From NCBI GenBank assembly GCA_949317995.1, contig OX439037.1:53416080-53480079 (forward strand): 64,000 nucleotides of DNA, read 5' to 3'. Both the position numbers and the translations under genes were made by a program. This stretch comes from Acholoe squamosa (taxonomy: Eukaryota > Annelida > Polychaeta > Phyllodocida > Polynoidae). This document shows, piece by piece, positions 1-63,960 of the stretch. The notes beneath the pieces are model-generated. The model saw nothing but the letters and a program-made list of their open reading frames with translations, was not told the origin of the DNA and ran no database searches. Position 1 is the first letter of the stretch. Every line of letters begins with the position of its first letter.

Positions 1-102
1 ATAAGGCTTCATTCAGCAAACACTAGGTCGACTGACGTAACCTTATGCTCGAATGCATATCCTGTAACTCTATTATTACAGCATTGGGTCAATACCTATA
101 CA

Positions 103-2417
103 CACTGAGAAAATTCTTCCTGACAAAGTGACATGTATACCCATGTCAACTTGATTTGACACAGAGAGCACAGGTCATTGGGACATGTGCACATATGTCA
201 CCATGACAACTGTAGCACACAGTAATCCTCATATGATTTGACATGCCTTAAAATGCCATGTCATCTGTGAGTTGACCAGGGTCACGGCCATGTCGAAGGC
301 ACTTGACATGTGATGGTTTGACATACATAATTGTTCTAGGATATTCCACTAGATGGAGCAAACAACCATTTTGGTACCAGGACTAATCACTACCAAGAAG
401 TACTACCAACACTTGAGACATTTGATGTATCTGTGTCATTTTGTTTTCATGAAGAATAGATCACTAAGGTCTGTAAATACTATCAATAAATGGTAGTGAA
501 TTCTATTTCGTTGTTAAATCTGCATTTGTTATTGAATATCAAAATAGACACCCACCATCCTGAATACTCCAACTGGAGTGGTTAGACACCTTATGTGTGG
601 GTCAGTGAAAATACCAAAGGACTGTATTCTAACCCACAATCTATAATCTCAGTATCTACAGTACAGGGAGACATATGGCATTGCCATGCACCTCCATGCC
701 CTTGTCTTATGGACTGCATAGAGGTCCTCAGTCAAGTAGGAGTTCTGTAGATAGGAAAAAGTGCCTTAGTGTTGCAGGCCTGTGGGACTATGATATCCCC
801 TGCCTTCTATTATAGGCCTCCCTTGATTGAACCATTGGTACATAGTTATTGACTGCTCTTGACCCTTACATAATTGTCTCACAGTATTACCTAGCACTCA
901 GGTGATTGGATCAGAAATATGTGACGTGTCTTTATTACGCATGTCAAATGGAGTTGACAAACCAAATATGAGAGGGTCAACCTCATTTGACATGCCTTCA
1001 TACATGTCATCTGGGAGACAAATTGTGACCTGTGCAGTATGTGTCAAAGCGATCAGTGTTCTTTCCTCTGTGCAATGTTGAGTGCAATATAGGCTATAGT
1101 TCCTGATTGAGGCTGCTATAGAGCTCATTTTGAGATATGTGGTTACATATGGCACGGGAGCATATCTGCTATTCTTCAAATAAATTATTAATATGTATTA
1201 GTCTAAGTTAGACAATCAAAAGTAAAAAGTTTTATTTCAGTATATTATCGATCATCGGCATGATTCCATTATACATTGTTTTGTCACTCATTAGGGAAAC
1301 GAAGATAGATTTATTACATTGAAACCCCCCACTTAACTACAGAAGAAGCGATCGATCTTAACCCGTCCGATAGATACTCAATCTCTCCATCGGAACTATA
1401 GGGTGAACTATTTTCTATCATGTAGATCGTTGTACATGCTGTATCAGCACAGAGGAAAGAACACTGATCGCTTTGACACATACTGCACAGGTCACAATTT
1501 GTCTCCCAGATGACATGTATGAAGGCATGTCAAATGAGGTTGACCCTCTCATATTTGGTTTGTCAACTCCATTTGACATGCGTAATAAAGACACGTCACA
1601 TATTTCTGATCCAATCACCTGAGTGCTAGGTAATACTGTGAGACAATTATGTAAGGGTCAAGAGCAGTCAATAACTATGTACCAATGGTTCAATCAAGGG
1701 AGGCCTATAATAGAAGGCAGGGGATATCATAGTCCCACAGGCCTGCAACACTAAGGCACTTTTTCCTATCTACAGAACTCCTACTTGACTGAGGACCTCT
1801 ATGCAGTCCATAAGACAAGGGCATGGAGGTGCATGGCAATGCCATATGTCTCCCTGTACTGTAGATACTGAGATTATAGATTGTGGGTTAGAATACAGTC
1901 CTTTGGTATTTTCACTGACCCACACATAAGGTGTCTAACCACTCCAGTTGGAGTATTCAGGATGGTGGGTGTCTATTTTGATATTCAATAACAAATGCAG
2001 ATTTAACAACGAAATAGAATTCACTACCATTTATTGATAGTATTTACAGACCTTAGTGATCTATTCTTCATGAAAACAAAATGACACAGATACATCAAAT
2101 GTCTCAAGTGTTGGTAGTACTTCTTGGTAGTGATTAGTCCTGGTACCAAAATGGTTGTTTGCTCCATCTAGTGGAATATCCTAGAACAATTATGTATGTC
2201 AAACCATCACATGTCAAGTGCCTTCGACATGGCCGTGACCCTGGTCAACTCACAGATGACATGGCATTTTAAGGCATGTCAAATCATATGAGGATTACTG
2301 TGTGCTACAGTTGTCATGGTGACATATGTGCACATGTCCCAATGACCTGTGCTCTCTGTGTCAAATCAAGTTGACATGGGTATACATGTCACTTTGTCAG
2401 GAAGAATTTTCTCAGTG
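103..2417. repeat. Giant inverted repeat (fold-back), 971-bp arms
   Basis: Positions 103-1073 are the reverse complement of 1447-2417. Paired positions always sum to 2520, at both the outer and inner ends, so there is no net insertion or deletion across 971 bp. I found no mismatch in the stretches I compared by eye. The 373-bp spacer (1074-1446) is not palindromic. The arms carry clusters of TTGACAT/ATGTCAA motifs near their outer (about 120-330) and inner (about 930-1030) ends, resembling subterminal repeats of a DNA transposon. No long reading frame is present. It may be a fold-back element, the long terminal inverted repeats of a gutted transposon, a recent inverted duplication, or an assembly artefact. 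Confidence 0.93.
1074..1446. other. Unique spacer of the giant inverted repeat
   Basis: AT-rich, non-palindromic 373-bp loop between the two arms. It contains no convincing coding frame. Because the loop is sizeable and unique, a simple read-turnaround chimera, which would normally leave almost no loop, is less likely but not excluded. Confidence 0.7.
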
Positions 2418-2889
2418 AGTGCGATACCACTGAGCTACTTATCAGAGCATGTTGACGCCCAAAGAACAAATGGAGTAAGGCATTATTGCACCATTAGGGA
2501 TAAATTATCATCGAATGCATCTAAATTCTGTAATTGGATGAGAGGATCAACGGTCTCCGTCTAATGATATACTGTAAGCCCCTGGTGTAAGCCTGAACAC
2601 GTCATTCTGGGCTGTTATGGAGAACCTAATCTTGCAGGGATATGTGCCCAACACTTTCATAACAGGGGATGTTTGACGTTTTACATTAACAAAACACTAG
2701 CTGATGTAACAAGGAGTAATACAGTCATTTGGCCAATCATTCTTCAACATGAGTGAGAGCGTACTCACATTCAGTCTTTTGCATAGGCCTATACCTATCA
2801 GGGTAATGCATTTCGATGATATTCAAACTACCATTGCCGGCAGTGAAATAATCTTGTTGATCTTCTGATCCTTTACAGTATCTTTTCTA

Positions 2890-15941: not shown

Positions 15942-16317
15942 GTACCATGCATGGATGCAGCATTGATGACTTAGTAGTCATACATGCAGTGCTAGATTGT
16001 CATACAATACATCACGACTAACCAGGTGCATGCTTGTACCATGCATGGATGCAGCATTGATGACTTAGTAGTCATACATGCAGTTCTAGATTGTCATACA
16101 ATACATCACGACTAACCAGGTGCATGCTTGTACCATGCATGGATGCAGCATTGATGACTTAGTAGTCATACATGCAGTGCTAGATTGTCATACAATACAT
16201 CACGACTAACCAGGTGCATGCTTGTACCATGCATGGATGCAGCATTGATGACTTAGTAGTCATACATGCAGTGCTAGATTGTCATACAATACATCACGAC
16301 TAACAAGGTGCATGCTT
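15942..16317. repeat. 94-bp tandem repeat, four copies
   Basis: Unit starts are at 15942, 16036, 16130 and 16224, exactly 94 bp apart, and the copies differ at only one or two positions. Each unit holds the palindrome CCATGCATGG and an inverted pair around GACTTAGTAGTC. The near-identity and exact period imply recent expansion by slippage or unequal exchange. Confidence 0.97.
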
Positions 16318-30135: not shown

Positions 30136-31225
30136 AGGGTGCAGATCAGTAGGGCGGCTTCAATATCTGCACGTGAGACAGGTATACCATGCAGTTGTTG
30201 TATTTCACAGGATATCACTGTCGTCCTTACAATACAAGTATGTTGCATATATTCTGTAAACTGTCTGTTGAAAGACAAAGCAGGAAGATATTATAAAACA
30301 GATCGAGGAGAAACTCCCTAACTGCACTGCACAGACAGGTACCTTACTAAGTTACTCTCCTTTTAGTGCTCTTGGTTTGAGTAGCTATCATCTTAATTGT
30401 TAGGTACTTGTACCTGACTGATATGAGCACTTCTGTGCAACACTAAATAAAGGTCAGGACTGAAAAGAACATGACTGCTGCAGGTAAGGCACTTTTTAGG
30501 CAAAACTATCCATTTCCCCTATGTGCAACACCCTCCTGAAGCCAAAAGTAAGTTGCAGAGCGTCCTCTCCGTCCTTGCTGTTTTCTAGTTAAGAATCTAG
30601 ATATATGGGAGTGGGCCCCCTCTCCCAAATCCTGGAGCCGCCACTTAAGTGTATAATCACTTTTATGTAAATTCGTCGTTTGCAGTCTTCCATCATTTAG
30701 TACAATGCTTAGACCTGAAAAGAAGTACTATGGATGAATAATTTAAGTTGTTTAGGAGTCCTTAAATCTACAGTATATCATCGACAAGCAATATATTTAC
30801 CAAAGCATTCGTACATGAGTCTGTGTTCTTTGTACATGATGGGTCTAGACCCCGAATATCGAGAGTGTGACATGATTTTTTTTTCTTAAAATCGACAAAG
30901 GACATGGAGCTTCTAGAGACAAGGACATGGGAACAATAGATAGTGACAGGGGACATGGACCTTTCTTAAAAGCGACATGTGACATAGAGCTTAGTGACAA
31001 GGACAGAGGAAAAAACAAATTTAGTGACATTTGACATGGGCTTTTCTTAAAATCGACAAGGGACATGGGGACCCCCCCCCCCCATCTAGACCCCCTACAT
31101 GCATTAGACAACCTTTCGAGGTTAGAAGGAAGGGATATATATTCGGGTGAAGTAATTGTTTATAATGCATCCCTATGCAGTACATGTATGTGTATTATAA
31201 ACCATGTCTTCCCTGTTTCTCCTAG
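30136..31225. other. Region upstream of the transporter gene
   Basis: No coding feature is supported. The region should contain the start of the transporter transcript or an intron, because a splice acceptor sits at 31225. I could not identify a promoter. Confidence 0.4.
30879..31072. repeat. Degenerate tandem repeat, about 80-bp unit
   Basis: TTTCTTAAAATCGACAAGGG-like strings recur near 30882, 30962 and 31042, each followed by ACATGG/ACATAG and AGTGACA phrases. This makes about two and a half diverged units. Confidence 0.7.
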
Positions 31226-31260
31226 GGGCGAGGCCGGGCTGGGCAGCGTCCAACGACAAG
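31226..31260 (+). other. 5' untranslated part of FLVCR-like exon 1
   Basis: A pyrimidine tract ending CTCCTAG at 31225 has the form of a splice acceptor. The exon therefore probably starts at 31226, with an upstream non-coding exon outside what I can identify. An in-frame ATG at 31204 lies inside that pyrimidine tract and is unlikely to be translated. Confidence 0.6.
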
Positions 31261-31839
31261 ATGGCGTCCAAGCCGGAAGAACGCGCTCCTCTCTCAGGGT
31301 CGCCCTCCAAACACGAGAATGGCTCGGGGCCACCTGGTGGTGGAGAGGAGAAAGACGCCAGCGTGGTGAAAATAGTTCCGCGCGTTTTCTGTCGGCGTTG
31401 GTTCATGGTGTTCCTCTTCGCCACATACTCATTGTCCAACGCCTACCAGTGGATCCATCTCAACATCATCGCTAATGTCATCCAGCGCTACTACAACGAG
31501 AGCCTGCCAGGGGGAGACTACCAACAACAGGTGGCTATAAACTGGCTGTCCATGATCTACATGCTCGCCTACATCCCTCTCATATTCCCCACCACCTGGC
31601 TGTTAGACAAAAAGGGACTGAGGGTGGTCAGCATCCTGGCTACATTGCTGAACGCCCTAGGGGCGTGGATTAAGTGTGCTGCGGTGGGCCCTGAGCGCTT
31701 TGCCCTGCTCATGTTCGGACAAACCGTGTGTGCCATAGCCCAGGTGTTTATCTTAGGGATCCCGGCCCGCCTGGCAGCAGTGTGGTTCGGCCCTAACGAA
31801 GTCTCCACGGCAACCGCCATTGGCGTCTTCGGTAACCAG
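31261..31839 (+). CDS. FLVCR: FLVCR-like coding exon 1
   Basis: 193 codons cover the cytoplasmic N-terminus and helices 1-4, ending after IGVFGNQ in phase 0 at the donor CAG|GTAAGC. The base composition is clearly more GC-rich than the surroundings. The Trp in AYQWI and the Gln in CAIAQ correspond to positions reported as substrate-contacting in FLVCR proteins (from memory of the family). Confidence 0.95.
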
Positions 31840-34800
31840 GTAAGCGTGCTTGGACATTGTTCTTGATCTTTCGTCCTTACCCCAAATTTTACAATGCCCC
31901 CGTTTTGGATCCACCACTGCTATAGGGGCCCTGCCATGTCCGTAAAGATCAAAGGTTGCGGTCAAGCCTTACCGTGTGAAAAGTTATGAGGTATGTATTA
32001 TTAGATTTTATCATTTATCTCACAAGAGGGTAAGATTGAATGCATTATCAGAACTACAATATATGTATACATAGTAAAGGAATATCACCTATTTATCCTC
32101 CAGTGTAGCAGTCAAAGCTTAGTTCCTACAGTTTCACAATTTGAAAGAAACACAATACACTATAATATATCACTGTAAAGTGTAAGTACTTACATCTACA
32201 GCAAAGGTTGCTGGCAACTTTTGTTCCAGTAGATTTTGCTGTACATCTACATCAACTAACTTGCTGTAGATGTACAGCAATATGTGCTGTAATTCAACAG
32301 CAATATGTACTGTTATTCAGCAGCAACACTTGCTGTAACTGAACTGTAGCATCTACTGTAACTTTACAGTAATTATACTGTTACCTTTTAGTGATTCATC
32401 TGTTTTTGTACAGCACGTTCTACTGTTCTTATACAGCAAAGGTTGCTGGCAACCTTTGTTCCACTAGAATTTGCTGTGGATACACAACCATTTTTTAGGC
32501 CTAACCTCCATCGATCTGAAAAGAGCATAGCAAACACATTGAGTAATATTATACGTGTAAATACGTTTCAGGCATCTTGATTATCACAACATAACACTGG
32601 AAACAATATGCAATAGATCAAGGGCACACATTCAGTTTAATTTGCCCAACAATTATGATTGTATATCATGATAACAGACAAGAACCCATCCCTACTCAAA
32701 TCCATGCAAATCAAGTTTCACATTGGATTCTATGAATTGGCTCAGTCCTTGGACTCATTGAGTCGGTCCTTCTATTGACTCAGTCCTATATTACCAATTT
32801 TCAGTGTTACGGTTTAAAGGTTATTGTTACAGGATACTTTCAGATTTCTATATATGTATTTCAATTATTTTTGACCAGGCCCTTTGTCTTGGTTTACCAT
32901 GTTTGCATTGATTCGCGAATACCAGCTCCCTTCTTATGTCAAGCGTAAATGACATTTGTGCTAGGGCTGTGTTAAGGTGGATAGCTACTGTGCCAAACGT
33001 GTCCTCTGCGCATCTTTCTGCACATATGTACCTCTCTATGGTTAGTGAGCGACTGACAAAATCGTAGCAACAGGTAGACATGGGTCAGGGGCAAATTTTC
33101 TGATTAGTCTCCCAGTACACTTACTGGTTAGGCCACTGAGCCATCTGCCTGTGCACCGTATGAGGGTAGTAGCCACTCTGAATGGTAGTGTTTTATTATA
33201 AATTTTTCATAAGATTTTTATTTCAATGTTAAAAAGTGATAGAAAGGTGTCCGGGACCATGTGGTTATAATACATATTTTTAATGCAGAAGGGTACTGAG
33301 AATTTTTGGAGGAAGTTATACAAATATTTAGTTACTCTTCAATGATATTCCATGCATATTATGTTAAAATGCTCTATAACCCTATGGTAGCTGCCTGGAT
33401 GAGTATCTGTGACCAGGCAAGCAAGAACACCCCTCTGCAGGGAAATTTAGTATCAAAGTTCATCTCAAGATCTTTAAAATGAGACATCATTGGCTTAGAT
33501 ATTCCTATTAGTTATGTCAGAACCCCTCCTTGAACATAGGTCACTATTTATATTTGAAATCAATGATTAAGCTCTAAATACATTATAAACCATAATAATG
33601 TCTAAAAACACAATAGATCAGCCTTTTTCATAAAAAATGCATAATAATATAACGGTTTTTATCATAGATTTTGATCAAGAAGGAATTTTCCATTTCTGTT
33701 TTAAGTTTTAGGTTTTTGGTGAGTATCCCCAAAAATTGGCATAACAATCTGCAAATTTTGATTATTGGAACCACTATAACAGACAGGATTATTGGAACCA
33801 CTATAACAGACAGGCTTATAGGATAAAAAAAATGGAGCATTTTAAACGAGACCATTGAATTATGCATAAAAAATTAGCTTAATGTATTTTTATAATAATT
33901 TTAGAGTAATTTTGCCCCTCCAATGCCCCCTGGTGGCCAAATGGGGAATTAAAAACCCCCCGTGGATGGTTGTTCTTCCTCGATGGGTCACTCTAATAAA
34001 CTAGCCTGGGACCCCTATATTTTCGTAGTATTATTGGAGAGAAGATATGATTTCTTGTGGCGAAAATTTGGAGAAAACTTAGCTACTTTTAGCCCATGCA
34101 TGGCGCCATCCACCTTAACTGAAGCTTTCCTTACAAACATGGATCATGCCTTGAACGCTTGGAATAACAAGTGTGAAAACGAAATGGTGTCTGCGGTCGG
34201 AGGATGGAAAACAGATCTTCTGACCACATCCTTAACATTAATAGTGTTTCAGTAGCTCATAATAATTTGTAGATTTTCTTTTTATAGATCCTGCGCAAAG
34301 CAATACATGATTTTCATTACGAGTTTCATGGTGGCCATGCAAAATTTGTAAGAGGGAGAAGCACGTGCAATGCAGGAACCCAGGAACTTGATTGAACAGA
34401 GTCAAGTGGTAAAGAAACAAATGATTAAATATCTAGCTCAGCCGAACCATAAACACGGACAGTGGTTGACATTTTGTTGGGTCCGGTTTTAGTCTGATTG
34501 TCCCTTGTTTGTTGACATTTGTCTGCGATACCATTTACCTCAAACTTTTATAATCACTAAGACGTTTTGTAGAATAATTGGTCTGTAGGCAATCCATGAA
34601 CTTTAATTAAATGATTGTTGTTTGATTGCTGTTTAAAGTATTTGAGACAAAATGTATTTTTTGTCACATTACATATAACTGATATATATTTTCCTCTGTC
34701 AAAAATCAAAGAGTACACATGCAGTATATTGTCCACCTGTATACCGACCTTTGGTCTATACGTAGAGGGGATTCATGGGAAGTCGATGACTCATATGCAC

Positions 34801-52485: not shown

Positions 52486-53560
52486 TTAAGAGTCTGTTTC
52501 ATGCTTCATAATGGCAGTTATGAATTTAGTCTCATGTGAGGTGTCATCTATATCTTCCAGTAGAGGTCTGTTGTAGAACCTGGCGAATGTATTGGTTCTC
52601 GCCCATCCTGTCGAGCTGAGTATGTCATTTATTGGCACATTTAGCCTCTCCGCTGCAATTGTGGCAGCGTGTCTTGTGCTATATGCCCCAAAGTGTTCCT
52701 CAATGCCTGTGTCCTTTAGGGTCACCTTAATGTATCTTGATAAGGTGACAGAGCTGGCTGGGGTGGAAGGCATTTTTATGGTGCAAACACTCTGGGGTGT
52801 GCTCCTTTTGTGTCCTCCCTATCCAGGTAGGCCTTCAGGTGTGAGTAGACACATATACGTGTGTCTTCATGTTTGTCAAACCTGAGTAGTAGTGGGGGAG
52901 TGTGGTTGGACTTTAGTTTTGTGAAGTATTTGATCCTGATAGTATCCTCTGATAGCTTGAGGTCATTTCTTAGCAGGACATAGGCACTCTGTATCCTCTG
53001 ACCTGTTGCTAGCATGAAGAGTAATAGGGTTCTCCTTGTTAGTTTATCCAGATCTAGCTCTTTTATGTCGCTCCACTGTGCCAGTTTGAATATTACTGGT
53101 GCTGGGTCCCAAATGTATTCATAAGGTTCCTGTGGTGGGTTTAGGACTTTTGCCCCTTTTACTAGTTTTGGGGTCATTGCGTGTTCCCCTAGCGGTCTGC
53201 CTTCTATGTAGATGGCCCATGACATAAGGGACCTGGTGGTGGCTACTGATGAGTGACCCACCCCACTGTTGACGATCTCTGTTAGGAAATCTACACATTG
53301 GTGTATGGTGGGGTGGGTAACACTGACATTGTTTTTGCTAATGTGTTTTAGCCACTTCCTTGCTGCTGTTGCATAGCTTGCTATGGTAGATTTAGACCAT
53401 GAGGCCATGAGGAGTTCCCAGGATGCCTTGGATATTCCTATGTGATCACACCAGATGATTTCCAGGGAGTGCTTGTCATTCATAGGGGCGGGCATAGGAG
53501 CCTCATCCTGTTGGCCAAGGGGAAGATTTTCTTCTGGTCTCCTGGCCATTGCAGCATTAA
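52486..53560 (-). pseudogene. DIRS tyrosine recombinase, frameshifted
   Basis: The first part (53560 to 52776, within a longer open frame from 53810) holds the N-terminal core-binding region (ASWSKSTIASYATAARKWL) and the first catalytic Arg (LATGQRIQSAYVLL). A frame change near 52775 precedes the C-terminal part. That part has the second Arg in AYSTRHAATIAAE, the Trp in STGWARTNTFARF and the nucleophile Tyr in FYNR. In the family the residue three before the second Arg is normally His (H-x-x-R); here it is Tyr, from a TAT codon one change from CAT. Together with the frameshift, this copy should be inactive. Confidence 0.88.
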
Positions 53561-55354
53561 TATGTCGACCCTTAGCGTCCATCTGTCCTTGAAGATGGGC
53601 AGTCTCCTGAGGTCGGGGTACCAGGGCTGCGTCTTCCACTCCGGTACAAGTAGTAACCCTCTGGGTCTGTCTTCCTTCAGTTTCCTTAGTGCCCTGCCAA
53701 TGATACCAAAGGGTGGAAATATGAGTACAAACAAGCCTGACCAGGTTATGGAGAATGCATCGGTTGCATGTGTATTGGGGTAATGGTGTAGGCATACAAA
53801 GTGTTGGCATATTGCATTGGAAGGTGAGGCAAATAGGTCAATGTCAGGTTTTGGGAACTTTTTGAATATTTTCTCTTGGCTTTCAGGGATCAGTGTCCAT
53901 TCTCCCGCCGTGGGGAAGGCTCTTGAGGCCCTGTCTGCCTCGACATTGTCTTCTGATGGGACGTATGTGGCTTTAAATGTTATGTTCATTTCCCAGGCCA
54001 ACCTGAATACACTTTCAGTGGCTTTGTTGCACGGAAAAGATTGGCTAGAACCCCTTTTGTTGAGGCAGCTGATGGCTGTTGTGTTGTGTACGTCTTCTTT
54101 GCATGTGGTAAATACTGTAGGTTTTCTCTCAGGGTTGGTTTTATGAACCCTTTAAGGGAAATGAATTTGTCATAATTATCCTGTGTCGTTATTAAGGCCT
54201 GGTTCTTTGCAATGATGAGCTTTTTGGTCAGTACCTTTGCTCTGTCATTCCCAGGTTCTGTGGCTGCTAGGGCTACTAGAACCTGCGAGAACTTCCTTAT
54301 GGTACATATTTGTACCTGAAGGATATCCTCTGCCTGTTTTTTGTCTGGTTTCGTGAGTGTTAGTGTAGGTGAGTGCAGTGTGAAGCCCAGGTACTCAATA
54401 GTTTGCGTTGGCTCTAATACTGATTTGTCAAAGTTGATAGTGAAGCCTGCATTTTGCAGCACCCTGAGTGTGTGTATTGTGGCTGTTCTGACTTCTGCTT
54501 TTGTTTTTGCATAGATTAGTGTTTCATCTATGTAGAAGACAAGGTTTACCCTATGCTTTGTTCTCAGCTGTGCCATGAGTGTCTTCATGATTTTTGGGCC
54601 TGGGTAGTAGCCATTGGGGAGGCAGGTGAACCCATATCTATTGCCATGATGTATTAATTGTAGGAGGTCCCTGTCTCTAGTTTTACCGGTATTGAAAAGT
54701 AAGCCTGGGTTATGTCTATCCTGGTTAGGGAGCTGTCTTTTGGGACTGTATTCATAACCACTGACAGGTGGTCCATTTTGAAATGCTTGTATGATGTCTA
54801 TGCTGGTTAGGGAGCTGTCTTTTGGGACTGTATTCATAACCACTGACAGGTGGTCCATTTTGAAATGCTTGTATGATGTGTATTCATTCAAGCTTGACAA
54901 GTTTAGTATGGGCCTGTATGTTCCGTTAGATTTTTCTTTTAGGAATATGTGTGAGACGAAGGCTCTCGGTGATGGGAAGGCAGATTCTATCATGCCTTGT
55001 GATAGCAGTTTCTTAAGCTGTTCACTCATGATTCCGTCTTTCACTGGATCCAAGCACCTAGAGTCAGGTTGTCTTAGCTGTGTGGGCAGGGAGCATAGGC
55101 TTATGGGTAAGCCTTTTGTACATGTCCAGTACCCATCCTTCTAATGTGTATTGTGACCAAGTGTCCCTGCCCAGACTGCCTGCCTGAAATGTAGGACTTT
55201 TATGTGTGTAGGAGGTAGGTGGACTTACTTTTGTTTTTAGCGCCTGTTGTTGGTGCTGTCTCCGTTGCGTTGGCGTTTGTCTTGCTTCTTTTTGTGTTTT
55301 TTTTGTTATTGTTGTATTGGCCTCCGTTGGTGTGTTGTTTCCTCTTGTCTTCAT
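53480..55354 (-). pseudogene. DIRS reverse transcriptase-RNase H-methyltransferase-like region, broken
   Basis: It opens with a linker segment (FQAGSLGRDTW, EGWVLDMYKRL) in one frame ending near 55064, then continues in another frame from about 55050. RT landmarks are FVSHIFLKEKSNGTYRPILN, a motif-A aspartate (SLTSIDI), and LPNGYYPGPKI. The catalytic box reads YIDE where the family has Y-x-D-D. An 82-bp tandem duplication (54721-54884) and a compensating frame change follow motif A. A further frame change near 54050 leads into RNase H (VPSEDNVEADRASR). A DAM-methyltransferase-like region follows, with DLFASPSN, FPPFGIIGRAL and WKTQPWYPDL. Such a region is known between RNase H and recombinase in DIRS1-like elements. 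Confidence 0.9.
54721..54884. repeat. 82-bp tandem duplication inside the RT region
   Basis: 54721-54802 and 54803-54884 are nearly identical copies, each beginning CTGGTTAGGGAGCTGTC. The unit is not a multiple of three, so it shifts the frame. The frame reached after the duplication happens to agree with the downstream RT frame, because a separate one-base lesion lies just beyond. Confidence 0.96.
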
Positions 55355-62439: not shown

Positions 62440-63960
62440 TTGATCCAGAGTGTGATACAAGCTATATATGATTGTAAAAATTACAAATTAATTGAGGAAG
62501 GTAGATTCTACAATGAAATGTGTGATATTATTCTGGATGAGTTGTCTCAAGGTTTGATAACTGAAACTGCTTTTAAACCTAAGTGTATTCACTCGTTGGG
62601 TGGTGTAGAGAAGTCTAATGGTAAATTGAGACCCATGACTGATTGTAGTATGCCAGCAGATATTTCTATTAACAACTACATGAGTTCAACGTCTAAAAGT
62701 TTCTCATACAATTCTATAAATACGGTAACATGTCAATTGGACAGGAATGACTAAATGAGCATTGTAGATTTGAAATCTGCTTATAGGAATATCAATGTCT
62801 ATGGTCCACATGTTGGTTATCAAGGTTTCAGATGGGATTTTGGTTATGGAAACAAATTTTTTGAAAGCAATCACTTGACTTTCGGTTTAAAATGTGCTCC
62901 ATATATATTTAATAGAATATCTGATTTTTTAACTGTTATAGCTCAGCTATATGGTGTCGATAGGATAGTTAATTATTTAGATGATTTTATTATCATTGCT
63001 AAAACTGAGGGTGAATGTCTACATAAAAGGAATATTCTTATTGAGTGTATGGAGTATATGGGTTTCATTGTGTTGAAGGAAAAGGTGACTGAGCCAAGTC
63101 AGATATGTGTTTTCTTGGGAATAACTATTGACTCTACTAAAATGGAACTATCCCTACCCCAGAAGAAATTAGATAAAATGAATCTAGCACTGGATGAGTG
63201 TCTGGGGAGAAAATTTGTCTCAAGGAAAATCCTTCAAAAAATTGGTAGATTGATGTCCTTTTGCTCACAGGTGGTTTGGGGTGGTAGGACATTCAGTAGA
63301 AGGGTGTTTAATCTCTGTGCCAAGGTTAGAAATAGAGATGTTATTAAGTTCTATAATGAAACCCCAAAAGACTTGATGTGATGGAAGGATTTTTGTAGAG
63401 TTTTCAACTGTAAGAATATCATTCTGAACGACAGTGAGTGTACGCCTATGTCTTCAGATTCCTCAATACAGGGTTGGTTTGGTAAGGATTACCTTTATAG
63501 TACTTGGAATGATACGGATCCAATGCAGAGTGTTTGTAGTCATTTTACCCCGTCTCAAAGGTTAGACAATCTCAAGATTCACCACAGGAATATTAATGTA
63601 TATAAATTATATCCTGTCATGGTGGGTCTGAAGTGCTGGTTGAAATTTTTTAGTAATACCAGAGTTCATTGTATCACAGATAACATGCAAGGTTTGGCTA
63701 GGTTAAATACCGGTAGGTCCAAGAATATGTTGTGCATGGAATGGTTACGTGAGATCTTTTGGTTATGTTTCATTCATAACATCGAAATATACTCCACATA
63801 TATTAGGTCGGAGGACAACATTTTAGCTGACCATTTGTCTAGGTTGAATTACAAAGGTGTCCCAAATAAATGCAGGAAGGTTTTGAGTAAATATAACATG
63901 TGTTGTTGTGATTGCAGACCTCAGGAAGCTGGAGAGGAGAAGGAAAAGATGCTTATATAG
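62440..63960 (+). pseudogene. Ngaro-like reverse transcriptase and RNase H
   Basis: Three consecutive open segments lie in one frame, separated by TAA (62752) and TGA (63379). Segment 1 has the RT N-terminal block (HSLGGVEKSNGKLRPMTDCS). Segment 2 has motif A (SIVDLKSAYRN), the LTFGLKCAPYIFNRIS block and an intact catalytic YLDDF, then FLGITIDS and GGRTFSRRVF. Segment 3 is RNase H with acidic residues in SSDSSIQGW and CITDNMQ, and the C-terminal ADHLSRLN. The stops fall where relatives have aromatic codons, so each may be a single-base nonsense change. The catalytic residues remain but the frame is closed. Confidence 0.9.

Follow-up and report, generated by a model that had tools for sequence, protein, structure and literature searches.

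Two opposed insertions of a young, non-coding 970-bp transposon very probably account for a perfect palindrome in the genome of Acholoe squamosa

How does a long piece of DNA come to lie close to its own exact reverse complement? The question is raised by a window of 64,000 nucleotides from the polychaete Acholoe squamosa (C3:53416080-53480079), in which the bases at 103-1073 and 1447-2417 mirror each other. A first, sequence-only reading had described a near-perfect palindrome with 971-bp arms and a 373-bp loop, and exact alignment of the arms confirms this geometry: they are reverse complements at 971/971 bases, separated by a loop of 373 bases (1074-1446). The surroundings of the arms, outside 103 and 2417 as well as inside 1073 and 1447, are unrelated to each other. 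A perfect inverted repeat of this length is not due to chance; the next longest inverted repeat listed in the window measures 128 nt at 80%. One correction is required, namely that the repeat itself is 970 bp long. The 971st base of the arm is the C of a target-site duplication (TSD), outside the element, and the arms looked 971 bases long because both duplications start with the same letter, C, in element orientation. Arm identity ends at the element ends plus this one common letter (Table 1).

The single arm has the ends of a cut-and-paste DNA transposon. Read inverted from 1072, the inner arm end starts with CACAGAGGAAA, in which 9 of 11 bases equal those of the outer end, CACTGAGAAAA, the two forming the terminal inverted repeat (TIR) of such an element. 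The clustering of TTGACAT/ATGTCAA at both ends of the arm, to which the first reading had pointed, is real: allowing one mismatch at most, there are six occurrences of TTGACATG and six of CATGTCAA in the arm, against 0.66 expected for each from the rest of the window. The likeness of the two subterminal regions to each other is weak, its score being reached by 3 of 300 shuffles and by 8 of 500 other pairs of regions in the window. Folded as RNA, a single 970-nt element is more stable than its shuffled versions (z -4.3, with none of 20 shuffles equally stable), as would be expected from inverted subterminal repeats. The element is non-coding and lacks the coding capacity for a transposase. The longest frame overlapping the arms, with ATG, GTG or TTG as the start, spans 93 aa, no stop-to-stop frame of 140 aa or more overlaps them, and a Pfam scan of two arm frames returned only zf-BED, at an E-value of 0.011 and below its cut-off.

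Is the arm found elsewhere? In the genome to which the window belongs (1,481,437,319 bases in 63 contigs), the arm query has at least 41 matches, both arms counted, from a search that gave 2616 first-look candidates of which 40 were scored. Sequence was retrieved for 30 loci, including two around the arms, and every one carries the same two ends and the 970-bp body. An internal 31-mer with the majority base occurs exactly at 1024 places genome-wide, and with the variant base of the arms at 6 more. Other copies and solo arms with the same outer ends, which the first reading had considered worth seeking, are plentiful: the exact 30-mer of the 5' end lies at 354 places, both arms counted, and 95 of the 99 places of the 31-mer on contig C1 have no other such place within 3 kb, a count that detects only neighbours keeping the 31-mer. 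Among 32 exact 5' ends on C1, 31 are accompanied by the 31-mer at the expected place, and the remaining one belongs to a full-length copy at 98.7%. The first 30 places of the 31-mer on this contig gave 25 full-length copies, the other five loci being partial or broken. These copies are 91.6-100% identical to the majority sequence, ten of them with at most one base difference, in a sample that requires an intact 31-mer and so favours young copies. The left copy of the palindrome differs by a single base from each of 28 other top-scoring copies. The family is young and common in this animal genome, and the earlier view of the arms as recent and mobile, with subterminal repeats and transposon ends at their borders, is borne out by the copies elsewhere with the same ends.

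Two members of the family have an unusual arrangement. At C3:55210300-55212700, the first 558 bases of a copy form three tandem repeats that are 100% identical and have a period of 556 bases, a very recent internal tandem duplication and possibly the start of a satellite. At C11:52197000-52203000, two copies (100% and 97.2% to the majority sequence) abut head to tail with 0 bases between them, and their outer flanks differ (TG and TA).

The target-site duplications of the two arms would carry little weight by themselves, since a 2-bp match arises by chance in 1/16 of cases; their weight comes from the family. Matching 2-bp flanks surround 58 of 62 distinct full-length copies and are missing from the other four, in a set that includes the arms and from which duplicates, incomplete matches and copies within 20 bases of a locus edge were removed. 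In the C1 sample they are found in 23 of the 25 full-length copies (TA 12, TG 7, CA 3, AA 1). The duplication is of fixed length, 2 bp at many independent sites. A strict preference for duplications starting with C was rejected as an effect of selection: because the query was 971 bases long, it favoured copies that have a C after the element, and in the C1 sample TA and TG predominate. The first top-scoring sample, biased in this way, is left out of the target preference. A 5-bp match, ATACC, located six bases outside the arms, was also dropped as a candidate duplication, as family copies fix the ends at 103 and 2417.

Since each arm is a complete element with its own duplication (CA/CA on the left, AG/AG on the right), the moving unit is one arm. 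The palindrome very probably consists of two separate cut-and-paste insertions of one very young, MITE-like, non-coding 970-bp family, in opposite orientation and 375 bp apart. No function need be invoked for the exact pairing of the arms, which results from two nearly unmutated copies facing each other.

Table 1. Positions, within the window, of the two transposon copies and their parts.
Feature	Position	Strand	Remark
Left copy (left arm), 970-bp non-autonomous DNA transposon	103..1072	+	ends same as those of copies elsewhere
Right copy (right arm), same element inverted	1448..2417	-	970/970 identical to left copy
TSD CA, left copy, outer side	101..102	.	CA / element / CA
TSD CA, left copy, inner side	1073..1074	.	
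TSD AG, right copy, inner side (CT in element orientation)	1446..1447	.	AG / element / AG on + strand
TSD AG, right copy, outer side	2418..2419	.	
Spacer ("loop"), host DNA with one TSD copy at either end, 375 bases	1073..1447	.	
5' terminal inverted repeat CACTGAGAAAA, left copy	103..113	+	9/11 match to 3' end read inverted
3' terminal inverted repeat CACAGAGGAAA (minus strand), left copy	1062..1072	-	
5' subterminal cluster of TTGACATG/CATGTCAA, left copy	142..310	.	exact at 142, 238 and 303
3' subterminal cluster, left copy	940..994	.	exact at 940 and 987
Rare variant base, element position 804, T for A, left copy	906..906	.	
Rare variant T804, right copy	1614..1614	.	

Why are the two arms identical to the last base? 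In so young a family, many pairs of copies are identical. The arms have, in addition, a rare base in common. Element position 804 is T in both arms and A in 28 of 28 other top-scoring copies, and the T form of the 31-mer occurs at 6 of its 1030 places. Besides the arms, these are two young full-length copies, each of which has one further change, and two old copies at about 94%. Two random young copies would rarely both have T804, so that, beyond the youth of the family, local transposition has probably made the arms siblings, or else they have been converted to each other. Local transposition appears to be the likeliest cause of their common origin, and we favour it with reasonable confidence: during replication, one arm would have given rise to the other by hopping a short distance, and both would then carry T804. 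Chance alone would place 0.27 (N=1030) to 1.7 (N=2616) pairs of copies as close together as the arms, whatever their orientation, in the whole genome. On C1, two pairs lie within 3 kb, one inverted and one direct, against 0.23 expected (P 0.023). However, their members are only 93.7% and 91.7% alike, unlike the identical arms here, and local hopping is therefore not shown as a rule in the family.

Alternatively, the two insertions of the family may have been unrelated, with gene conversion between the arms later removing their differences. This explanation keeps the two-insertion core and departs from the first only in where T804 came from. Inverted repeats that lie close together readily undergo gene conversion, and the presence of the rare T804 in both arms is what such an event would leave. 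Many young copies are already identical, however, so that only one base is left for conversion to explain, and we regard it as possible but rather unlikely.

Could the palindrome be a product of the assembly? Long perfect palindromes are difficult to assemble, but an artefact is very improbable here: flanks and duplications differ between the arms, full-length copies with the same ends occur elsewhere, and both the loop (1074-1446) and the right flank (2418-2890) have one match in the genome, which is themselves.

From the length and perfection of the inverted arms, and from the subterminal repeats at either end of them, the first reading had proposed a possible fold-back transposon of an uncatalogued kind, with 103-2417 moving as one unit. 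This proposal does not survive. Each arm has its own TIRs and 2-bp duplication; no duplication surrounds the palindrome as a whole, the outer flanks being ACA and AGT; the single-copy loop gives no sign of the whole palindrome recurring as a unit in the genome, and the 31-mer on C1 nearly always stands alone within 3 kb. We give a fold-back unit almost no credence. Fold-back transposons (FB, Galileo, Tetris) also have long inverted arms able to fold on themselves, and PMC4079207 describes Tetris as a fold-back-like element whose TIRs contain internal repeats. In the present case, by contrast, each arm taken singly is a whole element and has a separate duplication, and no second pair with the loop was found. 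An inverted duplication of a chromosome segment, via fold-back replication or breakage, could also leave a perfect inverted repeat with a loop, but the ends of the duplicated segment coincide with transposon termini and the two copies have separate TSDs, which makes this origin scarcely credible.

Which transposase would move the family? CACTA ends follow the CMCWR rule, and subterminal repeats are a CACTA trait. The element has CACTG..CTGTG ends and a 2-bp duplication, in agreement with the CA..TG termini and 2-5 bp duplications that excerpts of PMC12730594 give for most of the wider CMCT clade. Non-autonomous elements are classed in Repbase largely by termini and duplication (PMC4455052, in excerpt). 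Judged by termini and duplication length only, the family is putatively CACTA/EnSpm-like (CMC). With animal non-autonomous elements of this group it has in common the CACTG/CACAG termini (5'-CA..TG-3'), the 2-bp duplication, the short TIR and the clustered subterminal repeats in both orientations. Differently from them, the C1 duplications are mostly TA, TG or CA, a preference that the excerpted parts of PMC12730594 do not describe for animal CMC elements. The family would probably be mobilised in trans by a transposase of the CACTA/EnSpm type, which may bind the TIRs and the TTGACATG subterminal repeats.

Four matches to Transposase_21 in the whole genome exceed the cut-off for that domain family. 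None of these loci (3.4-3.5 kb) contains a cluster of the subterminal motif, two having one exact motif each and the other two none. In the 10 kb around one of the matches, the two best enclosing end pairs score 10/13, a value reached in 125 of 200 shuffles. Neither the 32 exact 5' ends on C1 nor the four Transposase_21 loci yielded an autonomous partner or a transposase tied to the family ends. Literature searches by topic, with the element's letters not used as a query, found no published account tied to the 970-bp family.

Some further features were seen in the window. Beside the right copy, on the minus strand of 2418-2460, lies an A-box-like GTAGCTCAGTGG; a tRNA-derived repeat (SINE) at this flank is unsupported, as the pre-insertion sequence, once restored, contains no tRNA according to ARAGORN, and 2418-2890 has no genomic match besides itself. 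An array of four 94-bp tandem units, 98% alike, occupies 15942-16317, and an exon-like frame at 31201-31866 has its matches in FLVCR1 and FLVCR2, transporters of animals, which marks the window as animal DNA. On the minus strand of 52776-55140, reverse transcriptase and tyrosine-recombinase-like frames lie side by side, which we take to be the arrangement of DIRS/Ngaro-type retroelements. A second reverse-transcriptase frame is found at 62755-63381, close to the right edge of the window.

Could two facing copies act on their own family? Mu killer of maize is an inverted duplication of transposon sequence and a proposed source of hairpin RNA, according to PMC3440606. The two loci have inverted transposon sequence in common. 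At the present locus, by contrast, the element is non-coding and the arms are separate insertions. That the inverted pair could, in the manner of Mu killer, naturally silence its own family in trans is conceivable but very improbable, and would depend on a transcript reading through it. Such a transcript would form a perfect RNA hairpin of 970 bp, matched by hundreds of young copies that are possibly active even now.

For the locus itself, a candidate for an uncatalogued fold-back transposon is removed and a plain account takes its place, that of two recent, opposed insertions of one MITE-like family. As a by-product, a young, high-copy 970-bp family with a 2-bp target, mostly TA, TG or CA, has been defined. 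This family was active very recently in this animal and may be active still.
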